Shown here in pieces: positions 276 to 6,264 of a DNA stretch of 64,000 nt. The position numbers were made by a program, and so were the translations under genes. How positions within the stretch are numbered: the stretch's first letter is position 1; the number at the start of each line of letters is the position of its first letter. The DNA is from Crenobacter oryzisoli (GTDB lineage Bacteria > Pseudomonadota > Gammaproteobacteria > Burkholderiales > Chromobacteriaceae), in assembly GCF_030385785.1 (NCBI RefSeq), contig NZ_JAUEDK010000011.1, positions 1 through 64,000 on the forward strand, given 5' to 3'. Below the pieces are notes generated by a model. It ran no database searches, was not told the DNA's origin, and worked only from the letters and a program-made list of their open reading frames with translations.

Positions 276-2156
276 TTACAGCTTGAATCGGCTGAACGCC
301 GCGTCCATCCGCGACGCCGCCTCGGCCAACGCTTGCAGCGTGCCGCTCACTCCCTGCAGGCGTCCGTCAGTTTCCTGCACGCGGTTGTTGATGGTCTCGG
401 TGCTCTGCGCGATCAGCGTCGAGGCATTATGCTGCTCGGTGGTCGATTGGGCGATGTCGTTCATCCGGGTCACTACCGACTCCATCGACGCGCGAATGGT
501 CTCGATGTCGCTAACCACCAGTTGCGTCTGCTCCACCCCGCCATCCACCGACTGCACCGTCAGGTTGACGTCGCCGACCGCTTGACCGGTCTCGCGGCGG
601 ATCGTCTCTACCTGCTGGGCGATCTCCAGCGTGGCCTGGGAGGTGCGTTCGGCCAACTTGCGCACCTCGTCAGCCACCACCGCGAAGCCGCGACCCTGCT
701 CGCCGGCACGTGCCGCCTCGATCGCCGCATTCAGCGCCAAGAGGTTGGTCTGGTCGGCGATGTCGCGAATCACATTGGTGATGCTGCTGATGTCCTGCGA
801 ACGACGGTCGAGCGAAACCAGCATCGACTCCATCGAACGAACCGCCGTCACCGTGCCTTCCATCGCATCCGACAGGTTCTGCATGCGCGTGGCGCTCTGC
901 GCCAGCTCGTCATGCGTACCCTTCACCAACAGGTCCACCTGCCCCGCACTGTCGGCGACGTGGGCGATGCTGACGGTGATCTCCTCCAGCGTGGCCGCAT
1001 TGGACGACGATACTTCGGCCATCTGGCGCGACCCGTCGGCCAGGCTGCTCAGCTGCGAGCTGGCTTGGTGCACCCCGCCGATCAGCGTGTGCGCCTCGCC
1101 CTGCAGTTGGCCGAACAGCTTGCGCAGCTGGCCGACAAACTGATTGAAGGCGCGGGCGGTCGCCGCGATCTCGTCGCTACCGCTGTCGTCCAGCCGTAGC
1201 GTCAAGTCGCCATCCCCTTGGGCAATGTCCTCCATCACGTCACGCAGGCGATTCAGACCCGCCAGCATGCGGCCGATGGCGATGCTGGTCACCGCGACGA
1301 TCAGCACCAGCGCGACCGCCGAGATGGCTAACAGGGCATACAATAGCGAGGACAGCGGTGCCATCAGCTCGGACTTCTTGGCCGCCACGCCGATGTACCA
1401 GTTGGTGCCGGCGATCGGCTGCAGTTCGACCAGCATGGTCTCACCGTCGATGACCGCCTCGCTCGGCACGGTCTGGCTGGCCAGAACGTTCAGGGCGCCG
1501 GCGGTCAGCGACGGTGCGATGTCGGTGATGGGCTTCAGGGTCAGCTCGGCCTTGGGATGGGCGATGATCAGGCCATCGCGGTTGACGATGAACGGATAGC
1601 CATCGCCGCGAACCTTCTGCGACAGCACCGCTTTCATGATGTCGCTGGCGAACACATCGCCCCCGACCACCCCAGCGAACGTGCCGTCGACATTGAAGGG
1701 ACTGGCCACTGTGATCGTCAGCTTCTTACTTTGCAAATCGATGTAGGGATCGACAACGATCGTTTTGCCGGCAGCCTTGGTCTGCTGAAACCAGGGACGG
1801 GCATTCGGGTCATAATCAGCGGGCGGGACCCAGCCGCTGGCAAAGGTGGTGCGCTTGTCGGCAAAGGCCACATAGACATCGAAGAAGCGCCCGCCCTCGG
1901 CAGCGCGCTTGAAATATTCGACGGCGTCCGGTCGCTGGGCAATTTTCACCTGGCTGCTGATCTGCGCCTGTTTCTCCTCCAGCCAACTTTTCACCACACT
2001 GCCCTGCCCGGCGAGGATGGAGTGAAACTCCTGGGACACCCCGTCGCGGATCTCGCTGCGCATGTGAAAATAAGAAAATAGCAGTACCGCCGTGCCAAAC
2101 AGCATGGTCAATAACACCGTCAGGCTGATCAGCCGACTCCTTAATGTCTTCATCAT
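276..2156 (-). CDS. Methyl-accepting chemotaxis protein with dCache sensor
   Basis: Inner-membrane chemoreceptor of 626 residues that passes ligand binding to CheA/CheW. The N-terminal membrane helix is at about residues 10-30. A periplasmic dCache-type sensor follows (about 35-265) with YDPNARPWF near 118, a later VDPYID and GVVGGDV. This series of Tyr, Arg, Trp-aromatic, Tyr and Asp resembles the amino-acid-binding motif of dCache_1 receptors, so an amino-acid ligand is possible but inferred. A second membrane helix (about 275-298) leads into a HAMP domain and the cytoplasmic signalling hairpin, whose tip contains [20 protein letters not shown] and [18 protein letters not shown]. The protein ends in SRFKL and lacks a CheR/CheB-docking pentapeptide. 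The first of two ATG codons is preceded by AGAGGG. It stands alone, with no che genes nearby. Confidence 0.93.
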
Positions 2157-2300
2157 GAATACCCTCTGTAAGTTTTTATGTAGTTTTTTTATTTCTCAAT
2201 CGATCGATGACCGATTGTTCTCCCCACGCTACTCGTAATGACTGGCTGCTTCAGTATGTCTGCTGCGAGGTGCTTCCTCGGCGGGTCACGCTCAGGTGCG

Positions 2301-2522
2301 CTACCGGCGGACGAAGCTCAAGCCCTTGCCGTTGGCGGTCGGGTTGCCCCTGCCTGTGCCCCACTACGGCGACACCTTGTTGGAATCGACCCGGCCGCTG
2401 AGCTGCCCGACGTCGCTGGCGTTGCAGTTATGGCTGTCGATGGTGAAGGCGGCGTTGGCCGGCTTGCAGATCCGATTCAGCGTGCGGCCGTTGTAGTAGA
2501 CCGCACCGCCGGACAGGCAGCC
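2301..2522 (-). pseudogene. Decayed coding remnant of unknown family with an in-frame TAG
   Basis: On the minus strand a protein-like stretch starts abruptly with CLSGGAVYYNGRTLNRICKP (from about 2519). It continues with ANAAFTIDSHNCNASDVGQL and SGRVDSNKVSP, meets TAG at 2364-2366, and then reads on in the same frame as WGTGRGNPTANGKGLSFVRR to a second TAG at 2301-2303. Composition on both sides of the first stop is alike (Gly/Asn/Ser-rich, typical of a secreted or surface protein), so the TAG looks like a nonsense mutation in a gene that has also lost its 5' part. Upstream of 2522 the frame becomes Arg-rich and unnatural. I do not recognise the family. It lies just upstream of the chemoreceptor and in the same direction. 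Confidence 0.4.
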
Positions 2523-2903
2523 CCTAGAAGTCGCGCGTTCAACATGTCTACAGTCCTGTCTGCTTCCCCGTCTCCTGCACCATCCCCACCGGCGTGGCCA
2601 TACGGCAGCCAGCGAGACGACTTTTTCACTATGTTTCCTTGTGATCTGGCCGATCTACCATTAAGCATCTGCTTTATATTTTACCCGCAGTAAGCATGCA
2701 ATTCGAGTTGCAATACAATAGAAAAGCACCAAAAGCATTGTGGCAAAATCGCCTCAGCCAGAATCAGCGCCACGGTACGTATTCCCCCTGTGCGAACCTT
2801 GCGATGACACCATCGTCCCACTTTTTCAATGGCCCCCATGGTGCTTCGCTCAGTCGACCGGGGCCGGCCTGCACCTCGTTCGGACGCCATCTTCACGACG
2901 CCC
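2523..2903. other. Non-coding stretch before the bufferin operon
   Basis: No frame on either strand looks like a real protein. The part from about 2660 to 2760 is distinctly AT-richer than its surroundings and probably carries the promoter-distal upstream region of the bufferin operon. No RNA gene or repeat was recognised. Confidence 0.4.
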
Positions 2904-2930
2904 TGTAAGAAACGCGGCCGTGACGCGACT
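2904..2930 (+). promoter_or_regulatory. Possible ECF-type promoter of the bufferin operon
   Basis: TGTAAGAAA (2904-2912) is followed after about 12 nt by GCGACT (2925-2930), roughly 55 nt before the start codon. Extracytoplasmic-function sigma factors often use a -35 of the TGTAA type, and bufferin/gig operons in other bacteria are controlled by ECF sigma factors or respond to metals. No sigma or anti-sigma gene lies next to this operon, so the assignment is weak. Confidence 0.3.
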
Positions 2931-2982
2931 GACTCAGCGGAAACGGCCTTCGCCGTCCTCCCCCTCTACTAGGAGAAACACC

Positions 2983-3240
2983 ATGAAAGCATCCCGCACC
3001 CTGATCGCTTCCGCCCTCGGCGCCGTCGTTGCCATCGGTGCCGCCAGCCTGCCGGCCCAAGCCGCCGAGAAGGAAAAATGTTTCGGTATCGCCACCGCCG
3101 GCAAGAACGACTGCGCGTCGGCCTCCGGCCTGCACAGCTGCGCCGGCCAAGCCAAGACCGACCATGACCCGGGCGACTTCAAATACGTCGCGAAGGGCAG
3201 CTGCCAACAGATGGGCGGCATGCTGCAACCGAAGAAATAA
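2983..3240 (+). CDS. bufA1: DUF2282 bufferin-type precursor peptide
   Basis: Secreted small precursor of 85 residues. A Sec signal peptide (about residues 1-28, hydrophobic core [16 protein letters not shown], cleavage after AQA) precedes a core with four cysteines in the order EKCFG, NDCAS, HSCAG and GSCQQ. This is the spacing I know from DUF2282/BufA1 (also GigP) peptides. In bufferins the cysteines are oxidatively modified by the DUF692 enzyme and the mature peptide binds copper in the periplasm. The ATG at 2983 is chosen because AGGAGA sits at 2971-2976 and the signal peptide begins there. It is first in a four-gene operon with the oxidase (75 nt downstream), the DUF2063 partner and a DoxX protein. 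Copper buffering here is inferred from the family. Confidence 0.9.
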
Positions 3241-3314
3241 ACCCGCTCCCTCCGCCGGTGGGGTGGGCCGAACACCGCCCCGCCAGCCCCTTCCCTGATT
3301 CGTGAGACCCCACC

Positions 3315-4151
3315 ATGACCACGACCCTGCCCGCCGCCAGCGGCATCGGCCTGCGCGCACCGCACTATCGACAGGTGCTCGACAGCCGGCCTGCCATCGG
3401 CTGGCTGGAGGTACACAGTGAGAATTTCTTCGACGGCGGCCTGCCGCTGGCGATGCTGCGTCGCGTCGCTGCCGACTATCCGCTGTCGTTGCACGGCGTC
3501 GGCCTGGGCCTGGGTTCGGCGAGCCGTCCCGACCCGACCCACCTCGCGTCGCTGAAACGCCTGGTCGACGCAATCGAACCGGCAGCGGTGTCGGAGCACT
3601 TGGCGTTCAACCACGCAGGCCAGCGCTACGCCAACGACCTGTTGCCCATCCCGTACACCCGCGCGGCGCTCGACACCATCGCCGCTCACGTCGCCGAGGC
3701 CCAGGACGCAATCGGTCGACCATTGCTGCTCGAGAACCTATCGAGCTACCTCGAATACCCGGCCAACGAGCTGACCGAGGCGGAGTTTCTCGCCGAACTG
3801 GTCAGCCGCACCGGTTGCGGCCTGCTGCTCGACGTCAACAACCTGTACGTCAACCAGCAGAATCTCGGCACCGACGTCGATGCCTTCCTCGCCGCACTGC
3901 CGGCCGAGACAATCGGCGAATACCACCTGGCCGGCTACTCGCAGCGCGGCACACTGCTGATCGACACCCACAGCCGGCCCGTGCACGACGCGGTATGGGC
4001 GCTGTACGACCGGGTGCTGGCCCATTTCGGGCCGCGCCCCACACTGATCGAGTGGGACATCGACATCCCGCCGCTCGATACCCTGCTCGGCGAGGCGGCC
4101 AAGGCGCAGCGCCGGCTCGACGCCGACGCAACGAGGGGGGATGCACGATGA
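3315..4151 (+). CDS. bufB: DUF692 multinuclear iron oxidase (MNIO) modifying the bufferin
   Basis: TIM-barrel non-haem iron enzyme of 278 residues that installs cysteine-derived modifications in the upstream DUF2282 peptide, acting in the cytoplasm before export. The family's metal-ligand motifs are all present: EVHSENF (32-38), SLHGVGLGLGS (58-68, His60), VSEHLAF (92-98, Glu94/His95), NDLLPIPYT (107-115), LLLENLSSYL (137-146, Glu140/Asn141), GCGLLLDVNNLYVN (167-180, Asp173/Asn175), GEYHLAG (201-207, His204), LLIDTHSRPV (214-223, Asp217/His219) and LIEWDID (244-250). The start at 3315 gives the usual length. The stop overlaps the next start in ATGA (4148-4151), indicating translational coupling with the partner protein it needs for substrate recognition. 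Confidence 0.92.
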   Translation: MTTTLPAASGIGLRAPHYRQVLDSRPAIGWLEVHSENFFDGGLPLAMLRRVAADYPLSLHGVGLGLGSASRPDPTHLASLKRLVDAIEPAAVSEHLAFNHAGQRYANDLLPIPYTRAALDTIAAHVAEAQDAIGRPLLLENLSSYLEYPANELTEAEFLAELVSRTGCGLLLDVNNLYVNQQNLGTDVDAFLAALPAETIGEYHLAGYSQRGTLLIDTHSRPVHDAVWALYDRVLAHFGPRPTLIEWDIDIPPLDTLLGEAAKAQRRLDADATRGDAR

Positions 4152-4888
4152 GCGACTGGCAACGCTGGCAGGCCGGGCTGATCGCCGCGATCCACGACCC
4201 CGCTCTGCCCGACACGGCCTACGGCGCCGACGGACTCGCGGTCTACCGCAACAACTACCGGGTCGGCCTGATCGACACCGTGAAGTCGCTGTACCCGGTG
4301 ATCGCGCAACTGGTCGGCGACGATTTCCTGACCGGCCTCGCGCGCGAATACGTGAGGCGCACCCCGTCGGCCAGCGGCAACCTGCACCGCTACGGCGAGG
4401 GCTTCGGCAACTTTGTCGACGGCTTCGAACCGGCCGCCGACCTGCCCTACCTCGGCGGTGTAGCACGGCTGGAATGGGCGCTACACCGCGCCTATTACGC
4501 CGTCGACGCCACGCAGTTCTCCCCGGCAACGTTGGCCGCAATCGCCCCGGAAAGCTGGGGCGAGCTGTGCCTGGCCTTTCAGCCGGCCTGCGCGCTGGTG
4601 CGTTCGGCCCACTGGCCGATCGTCGCTATCTGGCAGGCGCACCGCCCCGGTGGCGCCCCGTCCCGGGTCGACCTCGGCAGCGGAGGCGAAAACGCACTGG
4701 TGTACCGTCAACCGGACCTTGAGGCCGGACTGCTGCCGCTGAGCGATGCCGACGCAGCATTCATCGCCGCACTGATGGGCGGCGCGACGCTGGAAACGGC
4801 CACCGATGCTGCGCTGACGCTCGACGCCGATTTCGACCTGCAACCGCTGCTGGTGACGCTGCTGCAAACCGGCTGTCTCGCAGCCTGA
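4148..4888 (+). CDS. bufC: DUF2063 partner protein of the bufferin oxidase
   Basis: Protein of 246 residues. The N-terminal DUF2063 DNA-binding-like/partner domain (about 1-95) shows LAVYRNNYRVGLIDTVKSLY, VGDDFLTGLAREYVRR and LHRYGEGFGNFV, then PYLGGVARLEWALHRAYYAVD. These are hallmark segments of the protein that pairs with DUF692 enzymes in bufferin and gig operons, where it recruits the precursor. The C-terminal half is less conserved. It overlaps the preceding gene by four bases and is followed 13 nt later by the DoxX gene. The ATG at 4148 lies after a run of purines (GAGGGGG at 4132-4138) that can act as ribosome-binding site inside the upstream gene. Confidence 0.88.
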   Translation: MSDWQRWQAGLIAAIHDPALPDTAYGADGLAVYRNNYRVGLIDTVKSLYPVIAQLVGDDFLTGLAREYVRRTPSASGNLHRYGEGFGNFVDGFEPAADLPYLGGVARLEWALHRAYYAVDATQFSPATLAAIAPESWGELCLAFQPACALVRSAHWPIVAIWQAHRPGGAPSRVDLGSGGENALVYRQPDLEAGLLPLSDADAAFIAALMGGATLETATDAALTLDADFDLQPLLVTLLQTGCLAA

Positions 4889-4901
4889 CCCACGGAGGTC
4901 C

Positions 4902-5360
4902 ATGATGAACGCGCTGTGCCGCCTGATCGCCTATTTCACCCCGCCGATCCGCCTAGCCAACGCGCTGCAGCCCTTGCTGCTGCTGGGCCTGCGGCTGTTC
5001 CTCGCCAGCGTGTTCTTCAAGTCGGGGCTAACCAAGATCGCCGACTGGGACACCACGCTGACGCTGTTCACCGAGGAGTACCACGTCCCCCTGCTGCCGC
5101 CGGCGGTGGCAGCGGTGATGGCAACCTGCGGCGAGCTCGGCCTGTCATCGCTGCTGGTGGCGGGGCTCGCCGGCCGCTTCGCCGCCACCGGCCTGTTCAT
5201 CCTCAACACGGTCGCGGTGATCAGCTACCCGGGGCTGACCGAGATCACCCGTTCCTACCACTACTACTGGGGCACCGAACTGATGGCGCTAATGCTGTTC
5301 GGCCCAGGGCTCGTCTCGCTCGACGCCTGGATCACGCACCGCTGCCGCACCCGACGGTGA
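4902..5360 (+). CDS. DoxX family membrane protein
   Basis: Integral membrane protein of 152 residues with four predicted helices (about 25-45, 68-88, 95-112, 122-142). The motifs LRLFLASVFFKSGLTKI near the first helix and GELGLSSLLVAGLAGR are those of DoxX/MauE-like proteins. It ends the DUF2282-DUF692-DUF2063-DoxX cassette, the same order as gigPABT of Cupriavidus. Its role there is not established; a redox or quinone-linked role in the membrane has been suggested for DoxX proteins. The first of two adjacent ATG codons follows GGAGGTC at 4894-4900. Confidence 0.85.
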   Translation: MMNALCRLIAYFTPPIRLANALQPLLLLGLRLFLASVFFKSGLTKIADWDTTLTLFTEEYHVPLLPPAVAAVMATCGELGLSSLLVAGLAGRFAATGLFILNTVAVISYPGLTEITRSYHYYWGTELMALMLFGPGLVSLDAWITHRCRTRR

Positions 5361-5412
5361 GCGGCGTGGCATAATCGGAGGTATCCATTCAACAGCCGTG
5401 CTGCCCCGAACC

Positions 5413-6264
5413 ATGTCGAACGCTTCCTACACCCTGGTGGTTCAGTCCGCCGATCTCGATACCCTCGATTTGTCCGAGCTCGCCGAGTTGGCCGAAGCCG
5501 GCGAAGTCGACCGCCCCACCGCCGGCGTGGCACGGCTCGCATCGGCCAACCTGGCCAACCGCGAAACGGTGATCGACTGGTGTGAAGGGCGCGAGCTCGA
5601 CGCCGCTTTCGTGCCGAGCGAACGCTACTTCGCCGACTTTGGCCTGATCGTGTCCGACATGGACTCGACGCTGATCACCATCGAGTGCATCGACGAAATC
5701 GCCGGCCGGCTCGGCATCAAGGACAAAGTCGCCGCGATCACCGAGCGCTCGATGGCCGGCGAGCTCGATTTCGCCGACAGCCTGCGCGAACGCGTCGCCC
5801 TGCTCGAAGGCCTGGCGGAGCGCGAACTCGAAGCCGTCTACAACGAGAAGGTCGCACTGACCCCCGGGGCGCGCGAACTCTTGGCCGCCTGCCGCCAGCA
5901 CGAGCTGCGCTTCATGCTGGTATCGGGTGGCTTCACCTTCTTCACCGAGCGCCTGAAGGAAGACCTTGGCCTCGATTACGCCTTTGCCAATACTCTGGAA
6001 GTGAAGGACGGCAAACTCACCGGCGGTCTGGTCGGCGACATCGTCGACGCCGCCGCCAAGGCACGCCTGCTGGTCGAGGTACGCAAGGAGCTGAATCTCG
6101 CCCCCGAACAGGTGATCGCGATGGGCGACGGCGCCAACGACCTCCTGATGCTGGCCGAAGCCGGCGTCGGTGTCGCATTCCGCGCCAAGCCGGTGGTGCG
6201 CCGCCAAGCCGACGTGGCGATCAACCATGTCGGCCTGGATGGTGTCCGTCATCTGTTCCTGTAA
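5413..6264 (+). CDS. serB: Phosphoserine phosphatase
   Basis: HAD-family enzyme that removes phosphate from O-phosphoserine, the last step of serine synthesis. The HAD core carries the nucleophile motif SDMDSTLITIECIDEIA (about 83-99), the second motif MLVSGGFTFF (about 172) and the acidic motif GDGANDLLMLAEAGVGVAF (about 236-254). The N-terminal 75 residues are a short degenerate ACT-like region usual for proteobacterial SerB. ATG 5413 is preferred because MSNASYTLVVQSADL matches the normal N-terminus. A GTG at 5398 with GGAGGT 15 nt upstream would add five residues. A -10-like CATAAT lies at 5370-5375. The gene follows the bufferin operon closely but probably has its own promoter. Confidence 0.93.
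   Translation: MSNASYTLVVQSADLDTLDLSELAELAEAGEVDRPTAGVARLASANLANRETVIDWCEGRELDAAFVPSERYFADFGLIVSDMDSTLITIECIDEIAGRLGIKDKVAAITERSMAGELDFADSLRERVALLEGLAERELEAVYNEKVALTPGARELLAACRQHELRFMLVSGGFTFFTERLKEDLGLDYAFANTLEVKDGKLTGGLVGDIVDAAAKARLLVEVRKELNLAPEQVIAMGDGANDLLMLAEAGVGVAFRAKPVVRRQADVAINHVGLDGVRHLFL

Follow-up and report, generated by a model that had tools for sequence, protein, structure and literature searches.

The window analysed here, a 64,000 nt stretch of the Crenobacter oryzisoli genome (RefSeq assembly GCF_030385785.1, contig NZ_JAUEDK010000011.1, positions 1 to 64,000 of the forward strand), contains a compact group of four genes, bufA, bufB, bufC and doxX, preceded by a promoter-like site (Table 1). 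Judged from their sequences, these genes almost certainly constitute a complete Buf1 bufferin operon of the gigPABT type, and as such an ordinary member of a known family. Gene calls and Pfam matches bear out the first-pass annotation, and all four genes are on the forward strand; the span given there, 2904-5360, does hold the genes, but at position 2904 it is the -35-like element that begins and not a gene, the best start for bufA being the ATG at 2983. The second and third genes overlap in an ATGA (4148-4151), as had been described, whilst bufA and bufB are separated by 74 bp and bufC and doxX by 13 bp. Upstream of bufA, on the opposite strand, lies a gene encoding a dCache chemoreceptor (276-2156); 52 bp downstream of doxX is serB, which scores 239.1 bits against TIGR00338 (cut-off 144.15).

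Table 1. Features at the Buf1 locus of the window, in window coordinates
Feature	Position	Strand	Basis
Putative -35-like element TGTAAG	2904..2909	+	sequence; same element and spacing upstream of bufA in many relatives
-10-like element CGACT, 16 bases past TGTAAG	2926..2930	+	sequence
Ribosome-binding site AGGAG	2971..2975	+	sequence
bufA, Buf1 precursor, 85 aa, Cys 33/44/53/74	2983..3240	+	PF10048 (DUF2282); alignment of 98 BufA sequences including that of the window
Apparent Sec signal peptide, 27 aa, AQA/AEKEK	2983..3063	+	judged by eye from sequence
bufB, MNIO bufferin maturase, 278 aa	3315..4151	+	NF050167; PDB search matches 3BWW, TglH, MbnB
bufC, DUF2063 + RRE-type partner (PME type 1), 246 aa	4148..4888	+	PF09836; model matches TglI, NGO1945
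doxX, membrane protein, 152 aa, gigT/hvfX-like	4902..5360	+	PF07681; structure model pLDDT 97.1
serB, phosphoserine phosphatase, possibly co-transcribed, not a bufferin gene	5413..6264	+	TIGR00338

The four proteins score 83.3 bits for DUF2282 (cut-off 22.4), 345.1 for MbnB_TglH_ChrH (25), 73.0 for DUF2063 (27.2) and 57.4 for DoxX (23.6) in Pfam. BufB also exceeds the cut-off of the NCBIfam model MNIO_BufB (NF050167; 361.5 bits against 310), the four other MNIO models that it matched remaining below theirs. The BufA precursor had no NCBIfam match at an E value of 0.001, and the only NCBIfam models touched by BufC and DoxX were the HvfC and HvfX equivalogs, the cut-offs of which were not reached (34.6 of 142 bits and 55.2 of 80 bits, respectively). 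This points to a Buf1 operon rather than one of the oxazolin (hvf) type. The features of Buf1 membership found here are a DUF2282 precursor with four cysteines, a bufferin-maturase MNIO, an adjoining partner of the DUF2063 plus RRE type, and a DoxX gene. The family cut-offs, the cysteine pattern, the MNIO motifs and the fold of BufC all agree with the bufferin or gig-type reading made previously from the letters. A search of the same genome detected a single MNIO (E 1) and a single DUF2282 protein (E 0.1), with no second copy of either, and an Rfam scan of the window returned no match at gathering scores.

For comparison, the best 80 of 437 places from a scan of genome contigs were taken as related loci (L numbers below). 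The nearest relative among them is Neisseriaceae bacterium JH1-16 (92% identity in BufB), followed by Chromobacterium, Gulbenkiania, Vogesella, Aquitalea and others. BufB and BufC were matched in all 80 loci, BufA in 78 and DoxX in 69; the complete set is present in 68, and 65 have it in the same order on one strand. Exceptions in order are L048 and L052, in which BufA and DoxX are found further downstream, and L055, which has DoxX on the other strand. The 11 loci lacking a DoxX match (L007, L020, L041, L060, L064, L065, L067, L071, L075, L076 and L082) include some cut by contig ends. Within a sample of 61 genomes of the window's family (G numbers below), which also served for the co-occurrence analysis, DUF2282 is present in 57. 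The serB gene occurs in 24 of the 80 loci, two of these being L010 ("Beta proteobacterium L13") and L026 ("Xenophilus sp."); the names on the other 22 are ones we take to be Neisseriales. The first-pass annotation had remarked on a natural product in an "otherwise housekeeping region"; given this recurrence, such a neighbour is nothing unusual. The cassette is a common one, and its position next to serB is widely shared within the group. The near relative G036 has two more DUF2282 genes (L177 and L194), one of them about 4 kb upstream of the operon, neither with an MNIO in the approximately 3 kb examined nor with a promoter-like site of the kinds described below (N16 or N17). That the operon is non-functional in this genome, or that its precursor is exported unmodified, is very improbable: all four frames are open, the motifs are intact, and the near relative L003, whose BufB is 92% identical, retains the operon.

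The precursor has the Sec signal, as judged by eye, and the four cysteines (33, 44, 53 and 74) that had been ascribed to it, and the cysteine pattern is common to the relatives in the alignment of 98 sequences. In published Buf1 bufferins, the two central cysteines are modified whilst the first and last are linked by a disulfide (PMC12452194); bufferins with two modified cysteines are also mentioned elsewhere (PMC12538549), and in FonA each modified cysteine corresponds to the loss of four hydrogens (PMC12668002). Mass losses at all four cysteines, the check originally proposed, are hence not to be expected; the published chemistry predicts losses at two cysteines together with one disulfide. 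The calculated mass of the predicted mature 58-mer is 5999.79 Da when reduced and unmodified, and would fall to about 5989.72 Da with two thiooxazoles (-4.03 each) and one disulfide (-2.02); the modified peptide would be expected to absorb near 305 nm. Bufferins are reported to sequester copper (PMC12452194), and other thiooxazole peptides generally bind it (PMC12668002). In five Aquitalea loci (L013, L014, L017, L018 and L019) the bufferin genes occur in tandem, the upstream bufA copy encoding MNDC...GCKGQ or SCKGQ rather than KNDC...SCAGQ; the peptides of a pair may therefore be modified differently.

In a PDB search, BufB could be aligned with 3BWW, a DUF692 protein of solved structure, and with the TglH and MbnB entries, and its motifs HG, SEHLAF, EN, DVNN, YHLAG, DTH and IEWD are intact. 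The earlier claim that all His, Glu, Asp and Asn ligand motifs are kept can thus be put in terms of residues: H60, H95, E140, N175 (in DVNN), H204, D217 and H219 (in DTH) and E246. HvfB, which is 72% identical to 3BWW, requires each of N175, D242 and H244 for activity (PMC13419390), residues that we take, by motif, to be N175, D217 and H219 of the protein studied here. MNIO relatives are found on plasmids in 352 records, every one below 60% identity. For BufC, no credible relative emerged from the PDB by sequence, one run giving no match and another a single match at E 0.9; a relationship was seen only at the level of the fold, the model (built from 44 sequences, pLDDT 90.8) matching TglI (8hci and 8hi7) and NGO1945 (3dee) with a Foldseek probability of 1.00. 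Two loci contain BufB and BufC homology within a single open frame (L055:4860-6716, 619 residues, and L066:4911-6677, 589 residues), and these look like natural fusions of an MNIO with its partner.

The role of DoxX in such cassettes was previously described as open, in agreement with a 2026 preprint in which HvfX is called "yet uncharacterized" (PMC13419390). An alignment of 60 of 70 DoxX sequences has 21 invariant columns, including R31, K45, Y60, E78, R92, N102, H120, W123 and D141, and the 70 sequences have no conserved cysteine. A DsbB-like thiol carrier was rejected on account of this absence, which, taken with the invariant charged and polar residues, argues against DoxX itself carrying thiol-disulfide exchange. 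Searches with the protein found no sequence relative in the PDB at E 1, and the best Foldseek match of the model, at E 0.6, was not convincing. With VIA-align, the model resembled NACHO/TMEM35A (Z 13.3, 2.7 A over 117 residues) and, at Z 7.5-10.3, the membrane part of vitamin-K carboxylase; as an unrelated-looking chain, 2rld, reached Z 8.6, and the fold is a helical bundle, these likenesses may reflect no more than a common arrangement. GigT has been proposed, together with GigP, to pass electrons from Cu(I) to the quinol pool (PMC10304878), and our guess is that DoxX has a quinone-linked or client-holding role. Four loci with titles indicating Nitrospinota or Nitrospinae (L060, L065, L067 and L076) have bufA, bufB and bufC with no DoxX match, the flank of L065 being short; DoxX may therefore not be universally needed.

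The most informative part of the locus is its regulation, a subject absent from the earlier reading. TGTAAG-N16-CGACT is the sole site of its kind in the interval 2157-2982, allowing up to two mismatches at the N16 spacing, and TGTAAG or TGTAAT followed after 16 bases by CGACT or close variants is common upstream of bufA in many Neisseriales. The -35 sequence GTAAG and the spacing fit the neisserial sigma-E promoter, published as GTMAGBWTT, 12-13 bases, CGTCTAAH, which is equivalent to N16-17 between GTAAG and CGTCT (PMC2893595); the Caulobacter sigma-F motif, GTAACC-N16-CGAA, is N17 in the notation used here (PMC3511200). Spacing was surveyed in the 400 bases before 98 BufA open reading frames (ORFs), namely that of the window and 97 from the loci, the ORF of L049 having 2 bases only. 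Between GTAA and CGA, 59 occurrences had the N16 spacing and 16 had N17, all others from 12 to 20 amounting to 6 together, though tandem genes may lead to double counting of sites and the loci are interrelated; per ORF, N16 was found in 43 and N17 only in 15. A simple scan of 2150-5500 for sigma-70 promoters and terminators detected nothing promoter-like; its two terminator-like sites are about as many as chance would give (1.8).

A candidate for the factor recognising this site is encoded on another contig. The genome has 14 Sigma70_r4_2 matches, 13 of them above the cut-off, some being response regulators by sequence. Six ECF-like proteins were matched against the ORFs of the related loci; the one encoded at G000:C38:37911-38474 was the best match (129-196 bits) for an ECF gene in 17 of the 80, and in all 17 such loci a small ORF with an HxxxCxxC motif follows. 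The C38 sigma factor scores 234.9 bits against TIGR02943 (cut-off 162.2), and the overlapping gene encodes a 59 aa zinc anti-sigma factor (zf-HC2, 29.0 bits against 22.2; NF052368 antisigmaE, 75.4 against 50), in which Cys4, His30, Cys34 and Cys37, numbered from the second methionine, are at the positions described for MseR (PMC2893595). The pair lies within a contig of 64,402 bases, at least about 26 kb from both ends, and is therefore no direct neighbour of the operon. A search of the genome detected no NrsF, and no sigma/NrsF pair lies beside the operon. Sigma factors and NrsF have been reported for Buf1 clusters in a paper whose main text does not contain the term zf-HC2 (PMC12452194), and no statement linking zinc anti-sigma factors to Buf1 was found in the literature searched.

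The distribution of the sigma factor follows that of the site. It was detected in 52 of the 61 family genomes (E 1e-10), and NrsF in three (G030, G031 and G033), the last of which has no DUF2282. The N16 site is present in 48 of the 50 genomes with both the sigma factor and DUF2282, as against one of the seven having DUF2282 but no sigma factor found; G018 was counted as positive, its site lying just beyond the first 450-base stretch and being found on a separate look. The Fisher test gives P = 5e-6, a value that overstates the evidence because the genomes are related, and serves as a guide only. The other six genomes with DUF2282 and no detected sigma factor have either the N17 spacing (G030 and G031) or neither spacing (G037, G038, G040 and G044). 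In G030 and G031, both of genus g4, the zinc anti-sigma pair is replaced by NrsF, located about 0.8 kb from bufA. A strict division of anti-sigma types by spacing was considered and is broken by L080, which has the zinc type with N17 and not N16. From this pattern, bufA is probably transcribed by the C38 ECF sigma factor from the site at 2904-2930.

Several observations weigh against this attribution. The -10 sequence, CGACT, differs in its third base from the neisserial CGTCT; neither N16 nor N17 is found before 40 of the 98 BufA ORFs, these including the second copies of tandem genes; and the short form GTAAG-N16-CGACT occurs five times in the genome compared with 12 times for the reversed control, which rules it out as a genome-wide regulon marker. 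Two sigma-positive genomes lack the N16 site (G024, whose 73-bit hit is hardly an orthologue, and G039, which has N17), G057, a draft of 330 contigs, has the site with no sigma factor found, and G043 and G048 have the sigma factor without DUF2282. The rarity control and the ORFs lacking either spacing would suit an operon controlled in response to copper by some other factor, such as a two-component system, CueR, RpoS or a housekeeping promoter, with TGTAAG-N16-CGACT not being a promoter at all; induction of the Legionella GIG genes, for instance, may involve RpoS (PMC5413113). We regard this as unlikely, since the 16-base spacing is dominant upstream of bufA, the scan found no sigma-70-like promoter, and an extended form of the site, TGTAAG-N16-CGWCTRA, is found twice in the genome and not once in the reversed control.

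One of these two extended sites precedes bufA and the other a gene on contig C94 (G000:C94:8926-9191; L200 and L217) encoding a secreted-looking peptide of 61 aa that contains His and Met, with an exact TGTAAG-N16-CGACTAA 54 bases upstream. Matches to the peptide at E 0.001 were found in only two of the 61 family genomes, although weaker paralogues exist; G036 keeps both the bufA site and a peptide orthologue with its own site. A wider pattern, TGTAAK-N16-CGWCTRA, was scanned in 17 chosen relatives. Six of the 13 hits precede bufA, three precede genes for secreted MsrB-like proteins (in G036, G045 and G047) and one a YedY/MsrP-like gene (in G043, which is without DUF2282); the remainder precede a cytochrome b561-like gene and the peptide gene in G036, and nothing sensible in G047. 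A Pfam check covered two of the three MsrB proteins and the YedY-like and b561-like proteins. The secreted MsrB of G036 has no close orthologue in the window's genome, which contains a single match at 50%. These sites recall published regulons, in that msrAB belongs to the sigma-E regulon of Neisseria (PMC2893595) and the RpoE2 regulon of Haemophilus (PMC7907618), and the Caulobacter sigma-F regulon includes a YedY gene (PMC3511200).

On balance we favour the proposal that the Buf1 operons of Neisseriales other than Neisseria form part of a small envelope regulon of the sigma-E/MseR type together with periplasmic methionine-sulfoxide repair. The sigma gene would be unlinked, its zinc-thiol anti-sigma factor would sense copper or oxidants, and the genus-specific 61 aa secreted peptide would also belong to the regulon. 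Tempering this, the 13 hits of the wider pattern compare with seven in the control, only about a twofold excess, and eight of the 17 relatives have none, so that the counts alone are weak proof; expression of sigma-E in N. meningitidis is also reported to be unchanged by oxidants (PMC2893595). The stress concerned might instead be another thiophilic metal or oxidant, such as gold, chromate, cadmium or hypochlorite, which the peptide would buffer. The gig genes respond to gold as well as copper (PMC5413113, PMC10304878), chromate and cadmium induce the Caulobacter sigma-F operon (PMC3511200), and hypochlorite induces an hvf-type operon via RpoE2 (PMC7907618). Set against the reported copper binding by bufferins and thiooxazole peptides (PMC12452194, PMC12668002), this is doubtful, though not far-fetched; moreover, the inducer may differ from the ligand, in which case it is not exclusive with a copper-buffering operon under the stress sigma factor.

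The combination of a Buf1 operon with a stress-sigma promoter is, with high confidence, the best overall explanation of the locus. The genes, their families and motifs, the recurrent promoter-like site and its co-occurrence with the sigma factor are observed; the biochemistry sketched here is a prediction. Inactivation of the MseR/HrsE-like zinc anti-sigma factor would free an ECF sigma factor of the Neisseria sigma-E or Haemophilus RpoE2 kind, with which RNA polymerase would start transcription at about 2937-2940. BufC would recognise the BufA precursor and present it to BufB, an iron oxidase that, by analogy with published members, would convert Cys44 and Cys53 to 5-thiooxazoles in the cytosol. 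Following export by Sec, cleavage at AQA/AEKEK and formation of a Cys33-Cys74 disulfide, the mature peptide of 58 aa would bind periplasmic copper. DoxX would contribute an unspecified membrane step, perhaps linking the redox state of the peptide or copper with the quinone pool. If this is correct, a cytosolic anti-sigma factor sensitive to copper or oxidants switches on copper buffering and the repair of oxidised methionine together.

The operon itself is one more, fairly ordinary member of a large class of ribosomally synthesised and post-translationally modified peptides (RiPPs). Its wider interest lies in a testable statement on when bufferins are made: two types of sigma/anti-sigma system appear to serve the same operon, the zinc anti-sigma factor mostly with N16 and NrsF with N17 in the two family genomes having both NrsF and bufA, and one of these types appears to tie copper buffering to methionine-sulfoxide repair.

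Compared with known systems, the locus shares with the Buf1 bufferins of Caulobacter and others the same four core genes, the conserved four cysteines, an apparent Sec signal and the BufB equivalog; it differs in having no adjacent sigma/NrsF genes, a zinc-type sigma/anti-sigma pair being present on another contig instead. Gene content and order are those of gigPABT in Cupriavidus metallidurans, which is divergent from rpoQ/rsqA (PMC10304878), whereas the window's operon lies between the chemoreceptor gene upstream and serB downstream. The hvf-type operons under Neisseria sigma-E and Haemophilus RpoE2 have in common with it the MNIO, DUF2063 and DoxX proteins, an anti-sigma factor with a zinc motif and, for the neisserial promoter, the -35 sequence and spacing (PMC7907618, PMC2893595), but their precursors are of the EGKCG kind and not DUF2282 (PMC12668002, PMC13419390), and in Neisseria the sigma gene is inside the operon (PMC2893595). 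The Caulobacter sigma-F/NrsF regulon contains two DUF2282-MNIO-DUF2063 operons, one of them with DoxX (PMC3511200); there, in contrast, the anti-sigma factor is the membrane protein NrsF, and the promoter spacing is one base longer (N17).

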